From NCBI RefSeq assembly GCF_015169395.1, contig NZ_CP063458.1, positions 4,836,001 to 4,900,000 on the forward strand: a stretch of 64,000 nt of DNA, read 5' to 3'. This document shows positions 24,098 through 24,703 of the stretch, one piece after another. Each line of letters begins with the position of its first letter. The stretch's first letter is position 1. Below the pieces are notes generated by a model, which had not been told where the DNA came from, searched no databases, and worked only from the letters and a program-made list of their open reading frames with translations. Source of the stretch: Humisphaera borealis (GTDB lineage Bacteria; Planctomycetota; Phycisphaerae; Tepidisphaerales; Tepidisphaeraceae). A program made the position numbers and the translations under genes.

Positions 24098-24703
24098 AAC
24101 AAAAGACCAGGAAAGCCACGGAGACACCGAGACACAGAGGGCCGCTACATGCGTGTCTCCGAATCGCCCATGCGAGCCGCGACCGTAAGGGAGCGGACGG
24201 TCACCGCAGGTGGCCGTTCTGCAAGGTGTGGCTGCTGTCGCAGCCGTCCGCTCCCTTACGGTCGCGGCTCGCACGGGCGCGATTCGCGGACACCTATTTA
24301 GTGCTCCGTCAAAGTTAAGAATTGAAATTGGGTGCCATGGGCTGGCGTACTCGCCTGCCCGTGGTTTTGCGCGAGGAACGCCGTACCACGGGCAGCGGAG
24401 TACCGCAGCCCATGGCACCCAAAATCGAGATGCGAAATCATGTTTGTGTGCCATGCCCACGCCTGTCAGTCACTTTAGAACTGAGCGAATACATCCCGCG
24501 TGGGCATGAGCGAGCGACGCGATTTCCGCGTCTCGCATGCCCACGCGGAAAGCGGCCTCGGATCTCGGACGCAGGACGGCAGCGTGGGCATGGCACACGA
24601 AGTTCCGCTTTCAGACAGAGCCTGGTCTCCGTGCGCTCTTCTGCAAATCCGTCGAAAAGCCCTCTGTGCCTCCGTGTCTCTGTGGCTTTCCTGGTGTTTT
24701 GTT
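24098..24703. repeat. Nested palindrome of about 600 bp between convergent genes
   Basis: Outer arms 24098-24142 and 24659-24703 match as inverted repeats over 45 bases with four mismatches (CACGGAGACACCGAGACACA type). Inside lie, in order: a perfect 28-bp inverted repeat (24171-24198 / 24246-24273), a 36-nt-arm hairpin (24330-24365 / 24385-24420, four mismatches) and a 173-bp element (24439-24611) with GTGCCATGCCCACG / CGTGGGCATGGCAC ends. No protein gene is visible in the gap. Confidence 0.9.

Follow-up and report, generated by a model that had tools for sequence, protein, structure and literature searches.

How do palindromes come to lie inside one another in the space between two bacterial genes? 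The question is raised by an intergenic gap of Humisphaera borealis, whose genome (the source genome, G000) is a single contig of 7.19 Mb. We analysed a stretch of 64,000 nucleotides from this contig (the window, ~63.5% G+C), in which a 616-nt block separates two convergent genes. Its outer arms, named E1, enclose three further palindromes, named E2, E3 and E4. We consider it likely, with a probability of roughly 75%, that non-autonomous mobile palindromes are nested at this locus, with E1 as the outermost layer, a gene-less form of the hairpin element whose arms flank GxxExxY genes, and that E2, E3 and E4 landed in its loop.

The palindromic block between two convergent genes

The features of the locus are as follows, in window coordinates.

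22570–24090, plus strand: sulfatase gene (PF00884), left neighbour, ending 2 nt before the repeat
24098–24142, plus strand: E1 left arm, with iteron core CCACGGAGACACCGAGACACAGAG at 24116–24139
24143–24152: left remnant of the E1 centre, limits approximate
24153–24294: E2, a REP-type inverted pair with an outer layer; REP units at 24174–24196 (plus) and 24248–24270 (minus)
24299–24327, plus strand: E3-long left outer layer, terminal repeat AGTGCTCYGTCA...
24328–24422: E3, a REP-type inverted pair with arms 24328–24365 and 24385–24422; same family as the repeats around the L030 RAYT gene
24423–24442: E3/E4 junction; the E3 right and E4 left terminal layers are lost here and both present at L001
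24443–24601: E4, with outer arms 24443–24462 and 24582–24601, inner pair 24496–24513 and 24531–24548, and four GCATGCCCACGC-type units
24602–24625, minus strand: E4-long right outer layer, terminal repeat AGGCTCTGTCTGAAAG on the minus strand
24626–24658: right remnant of the E1 centre, ending in CGTCGAAAA before the arm; left limit approximate
24659–24703, minus strand: E1 right arm, with iteron core at 24662–24685
24736–25689, minus strand: GluQ-RS-like tRNA synthetase class Ic gene (PF00749), right neighbour

A preliminary description, made from the sequence alone, had reported 45-nt outer arms with four mismatches around a perfect 28-bp inverted repeat, a hairpin with 36-nt arms and a 173-bp palindromic element, together filling the gap between the genes. 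The structure is real. The arms at 24098–24142 and 24659–24703 pair at 41/45 positions, and the 28-bp repeat is contained in a perfect run of ~30 in E2, which has 36-nt arms (24165–24200 and 24244–24279, 35/36 paired). The repeats occupy the space between the sulfatase stop codon at 24090 (plus strand) and the stop side of the GluQ-RS-like gene at 24736 (minus strand). E3 has 38-nt arms, of which 34 positions pair, and an internal hairpin, while E4 spans ~24440–24605 and combines 20-nt outer arms with an inner inverted pair.

Folded as single-stranded DNA, the block reached −226.5 kcal/mol, against −120.4 ± 4.7 kcal/mol for 20 shuffles (z = −22.8). We also counted inverted repeats whose arms were 24 nt or longer and paired at 85% or more. 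There were 48 in a 400-kb sample of the source genome and none in its shuffled copy; the window held 12. The folding energy and this census together exclude a chance origin. By extrapolation, the whole genome contains several hundred such inverted repeats. Different families were seldom nested in the 400-kb sample: apart from an array of one family in L132, there was a single case (L137). Even for the source genome, then, the window locus is unusual.

E1 arms in the source genome and across phyla

Elsewhere in the source genome, seven loci have E1 arms in inverted pairs, and an eighth has one arm alone. The paired arms were spaced 73–117 nt apart, compared with 516 nt in the window. The centres of four of these copies are related (GGGCCGA...CGTCGAAAAGCCC), and related ends are retained in the window on both sides of the insert. 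When the right remnant was compared with the copies, shuffled sequences matched as well in 2/500 cases for L031 and 5/500 for L036, which is significant, and in 21/500 for L033 and 92/500 for L038, which is weak. Since the match is modest, the insertion point and any target duplication are placed only approximately.

An exact search with the 24-nt E1 arm CCACAGAGACACGGAGGCACAGAG, in one genome per species, returned at least 118 stretches. The matches listed came from Proteobacteria, Spirochaetes, Nitrospirae, Acidobacteria, Bacteroidetes, Verrucomicrobia, Planctomycetes, Chloroflexi, a Nostoc and others, and mostly formed inward pairs (86 pairs, 76 of them spaced 32–212 nt start to start). Among the ten long-spaced pairs listed, three contained a GxxExxY gene (L187, L196 and L202) and three contained other palindromes (L177, L224 and L254). 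A fourth GxxExxY gene, at L067 in a related genome, adjoins an E1 arm on one side. At these four loci the arms are identical or nearly identical to E1, and the gene at L196 carries an in-frame stop. Because arms of this type flank GxxExxY genes in many bacteria, we read E1 as the short, gene-less form.

Arms of GxxExxY genes have a common unit grammar

Two E1-associated proteins that we scanned matched TIGR04256 (141 and 150 bits) and PF13366 (PDDEXK_3; 138 and 144 bits). From the Pfam assignment, GxxExxY is predicted to be a PD-(D/E)XK nuclease. An AlphaFold model built from two sequences had a pLDDT of 39.5, too poor for a fold search, and a sequence search identified no related solved structure. 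We examined 50 GxxExxY loci from the source genome and its relatives for inverted repeats with a score of 14 or more within 250 nt. Such repeats flanked the gene at 42/50 loci, compared with 1/130 displaced sites in the same loci.

Read inward, these arms carry two to three tandem units of the form C(A/G)(C/T)N(A/C/G)A(A/G/T), spaced 8–10 nt. At least two units were found in 40/42 GxxExxY arms and at least three in 30/42, compared with 0.8% and none of the shuffled arms and with 0/9 RAYT arms of the source genome; the pattern was written after the arms had been seen, so these shuffle and RAYT comparisons are descriptive. Both E1 arms of the window contain three units (CAC.GAG..). The source genome has four GxxExxY genes, and the three that we examined have arms related, though not identical, to E1. 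Considering this grammar together with the E1 arms that enclose GxxExxY genes (L187, L196, L202 and, on one side, L067), we placed E1 in the GxxExxY class rather than among the Y1 repeats. The window E1 itself contains no gene.

GxxExxY copies on plasmids were also flanked by inverted repeats in Gemmatirosa, Bernardetia, Bacteroides and Sphingomonas, and the unit pattern was present in two of the four. The Sphingomonas gene is located between fabD and fabG. The arms of the Treponema plasmid copy are weak, and those in Prevotella and Fusobacteria are unclear; of the seven copies on plasmids, two or three thus lack clear arms. No empty site for the Azospirillum GxxExxY element was matched in plasmids, and no GxxExxY relative was found in viral contigs.

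Does the nuclease move the hairpins? We tentatively propose, at somewhat below even odds, that E1 belongs to a class of mobile hairpins found across phyla, whose full form encodes only the GxxExxY nuclease. This would be a minimal element driven by a nuclease and not by a known transposase, and its gene-less hairpins, left behind in a very wide range of bacteria, would then come to nest other palindromes. GxxExxY would act on its own arms and thereby move E1-type hairpins, although association with arms is not proof of mobility. It is also quite possible, if somewhat doubtful, that the genes are cargo or domesticated nucleases that sit in the hairpins or are regulated by them. The family is broad, its function is uncharacterised, its mobility has not been observed, and 8 of the 50 copies have no clear arms, all of which would fit such a role. 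Conversely, one arm grammar encloses GxxExxY almost constantly, in several phyla and at unrelated insertion sites, and many gene-less hairpins have the same arms as the GxxExxY elements, which argues for a mobility gene. The association links an abundant but anonymous kind of bacterial repeat, the CCACAGAGACACGGAG-type hairpins that recur exactly in many phyla, to an uncharacterised nuclease family, and makes the origin of these hairpins directly testable. Searching the non-subscription literature by arm sequence and by GxxExxY, TIGR04256 and PF13366, we found no paper that links the repeats and the protein. As far as we found, hairpins of the E1 type flanking GxxExxY genes are undescribed; we do not claim priority.

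Several other hairpins were seen in the course of this analysis. At L347, on the Gemmatirosa plasmid, complete hairpins of the gene's own arm type flank the GxxExxY gene, which suggests that one hairpin element inserted beside another. At L353, on a Fusobacteria plasmid, the gene is flanked by a ~22-nt direct repeat (CAGATTTAATCCGTGTACCTAT) and not by clear inverted arms. The window also contains a hairpin at 47906–48036; the grammar of its arms, GGTCCACGAATGAACACGAATTGACACGAAT, resembles that of the arms around GxxExxY genes (compare L345). Inverted repeats with arms of tandem ~7-nt units (for example AGTGGTC and CGAACGC) lie at 38730–38884, 49035–49159 and 61744–61827. Short hairpins with such period-7 arms numbered 23 in 1.3 Mb, and are possibly a third class with a gene of its own.

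The inner palindromes resemble REP-type pairs

REP pairs and the Y1 transposase genes associated with them (RAYT/TIRYT, or TnpA-REP) are known systems (PMC3733652, PMC6006769, PMC3116915). A pair of repeats flanking the gene is part of their known anatomy (PMC3733652, PMC6006769), and many such Y1 genes and repeats have been reported in R. baltica and others (PMC3733652). The source genome has 11 matches to Y1_Tnp (PF01797), and the loci that we fetched were flanked by inverted repeats. One of them, L030, contains a PF01797 Y1/RAYT gene between perfect 37-nt E3 arms on both sides. E3 itself is an inverted pair of short imperfect palindromes with ~30 copies in the source genome, most of them intergenic. 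By this arrangement, E3 is the REP of the L030 gene. Inspection of the alignment of E3 copies revealed no GTAG or CGTC tag adjoining the palindrome, so we filed E3 as a TIRYT-type repeat and not as a GTAG REP.

E2 has a single copy in the source genome. Its exact arm, often in inverted pairs, occurs in a sister species and in other genera, and was found in 8/294 sampled genomes of the phylum (the source genome included), with up to 92 matches in one genome. The sister-species copy at L147 has an outer layer in common with the window copy. No Y1 gene flanked by the E2 repeat was found in the source genome. In another genome, G047, E2 units at 1325 (plus) and 1875 (minus) enclose a Y1 gene (L094); the region is rich in E2, and the gene is a possible cognate of E2.

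E4 is a four-unit palindrome similar to the E2 and E3 pairs, with ~10 copies and 24 exact arm matches in the source genome. The exact arm was absent from 149 other genomes of the class. It was also absent from all fetched Y1 loci, where we found no cognate Y1 gene for E4.

Like REPs, REPINs and BIMEs, E2, E3 and E4 are multicopy intergenic inverted pairs of short imperfect palindromes; E3 has a Y1 gene enclosed by its own repeat in the source genome, and E2 may have one in another genome. They are unlike those systems in that no GTAG/CGTC tag was recognised, E3 and E4 copies have an extra layer of terminal repeats, a single site has several families nested or fused, and no Y1 gene was found for E4. 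REP pairs, RAYT/TIRYT genes, their location between convergent genes and the use of REPs as insertion targets are already known (PMC3733652, PMC6006769, PMC1525189).

The palindromes might instead be mainly bidirectional transcription terminators or stabilisers of mRNA 3' ends, kept by selection between convergent genes. The block begins 2 nt past one stop codon, folds very strongly and lies between convergent genes, and the known locations of REPs include 3' ends as well as the space between convergent genes (PMC3733652). However, a scan of the region for intrinsic terminators (G+C-rich stem, short loop and T run) found no such site. The many families, their repeated genomic copies and the cognate transposase genes indicate a mobile origin, and we therefore regard a mainly terminator role as unlikely. 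The palindromes could have acquired such a role after insertion. An Rfam search returned only miRNA hairpin models, all below their gathering scores, which we took as chance matches of long hairpins.

Of ten RAYT-like loci in one genome (L021–L030), most have their own palindrome. Four of these recur in the window, namely E3 at 24328–24422 and those at 6692–6788, 13170–13282 and 15041–15148. An IS630-type transposase whose coding sequence is divided between two frames lies at 19972–21013 of the window, and the L029 RAYT palindrome (GTTAGCCGCGACGCGAAGCGGAGCG) is present on either side of it.

Terminal layers of E3 and E4

The terminal layer around several E3 copies is AGTGCTCTGTCAC...GTGACAGAGCACT, and that around E4 copies is (C/T)AGGCTCTGTCTC...GAGACAGAGCCT. 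Genome-wide, good matches to the AGTGCTCTGTCAC-type terminal motif flank E3 copies. In the window, the left layer comes from E3 and the right one from E4, and the layers in between have been lost. Both elements are complete and side by side at L001. E3 and E4 have related terminal layers, and the two elements are fused in the window.

Such layers raise the question of whether a DDE (IS630/Tc1-type) transposon that duplicates a TA target is the parent of E3-long and E4-long, which would then be MITEs with the REP cores as passengers. The terminal repeats AGTGCTCTGTCAC and AGGCTCTGTC at both ends, TA at several of the ends, and an IS630-like gene ~3 kb from the block would all be consistent with this. 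Against it, no other element with E3-type terminal repeats, autonomous ones included, was found genome-wide, the IS630-like gene has a different flanking palindrome, and TA is absent from many left ends. A MITE origin is accordingly improbable.

Nesting of palindromes from different systems

The preliminary description had suggested that palindromes were inserted into palindromes; on that reading, the arms should be present elsewhere in the genome and the parts should be separable. The E1 pairs and single arm described above, together with the ~30 copies of E3 and ~10 of E4, bear out the former. The latter is borne out by E2, which the sister species has by itself, by E3, which is solitary at most of its sites, and by E1 copies without inserts. 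The families are separate and have independent copies, and a case of nesting at L007 supports insertion. There, the right arm of E3 (right layer) is interrupted by an E4 copy of 115 nt. When its flanks are joined, 38/43 positions are identical to the intact E3 of L011. We read L007 as a nested insertion with a recognisable empty counterpart. At the window locus itself, a search through the GluQ-RS neighbour gave no orthologous empty site: the sulfatase/GluQ-RS gene pair is absent from the fetched relatives, and the nearest relatives are ~60% identical in the flanking protein.

That the block is one old composite element, moved as a unit with the inner palindromes as parts of one design, is very improbable, since E1, E2, E3 and E4 were each found without the others and E1 arms lack E2–E4 at all other fetched genomic sites, even though E3 and E4 are adjacent in identical order at L001 and have related terminal sequences.

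Under the nested reading, E1 would be the oldest layer, older than its contents, and palindromes of another kind (E2, E3 and E4) would then have landed in its loop. E2 and E3 would be inverted pairs of the REPIN/TIRYT kind, spread by Y1 (HUH) transposases. REP pairs may enter by single-strand transposition, perhaps favoured by hairpin loops. Alternatively, their entry may be favoured by harmless gene-free 3' ends and gaps between convergent genes. Palindromic REPs have been described as hot spots of insertion (Tobes and Pareja 2006, PMC1525189), and there as here palindromic repeats are landing sites for mobile DNA. In that study full insertion sequences entered REPs, whereas here gene-less palindromes entered a GxxExxY-type E1. 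The locus shows that palindromes of different mobility systems nest in one another, and such nesting can build very large intergenic hairpin DNA.

Two further sites have a layered structure. The window contains an inverted repeat with 95-nt arms at 35868–36109. Its arms start with a core of the E1 type, CCACGGAGTCACGGAGACACGGAG, and include a hairpin that is REP-like (GATCCTGAGGTACTCCGAAGGACC); it is probably a second two-layer palindrome. At L162, in genome G015, E1 arms surround a second inverted repeat of the TGCACGAATC type, another nested case.
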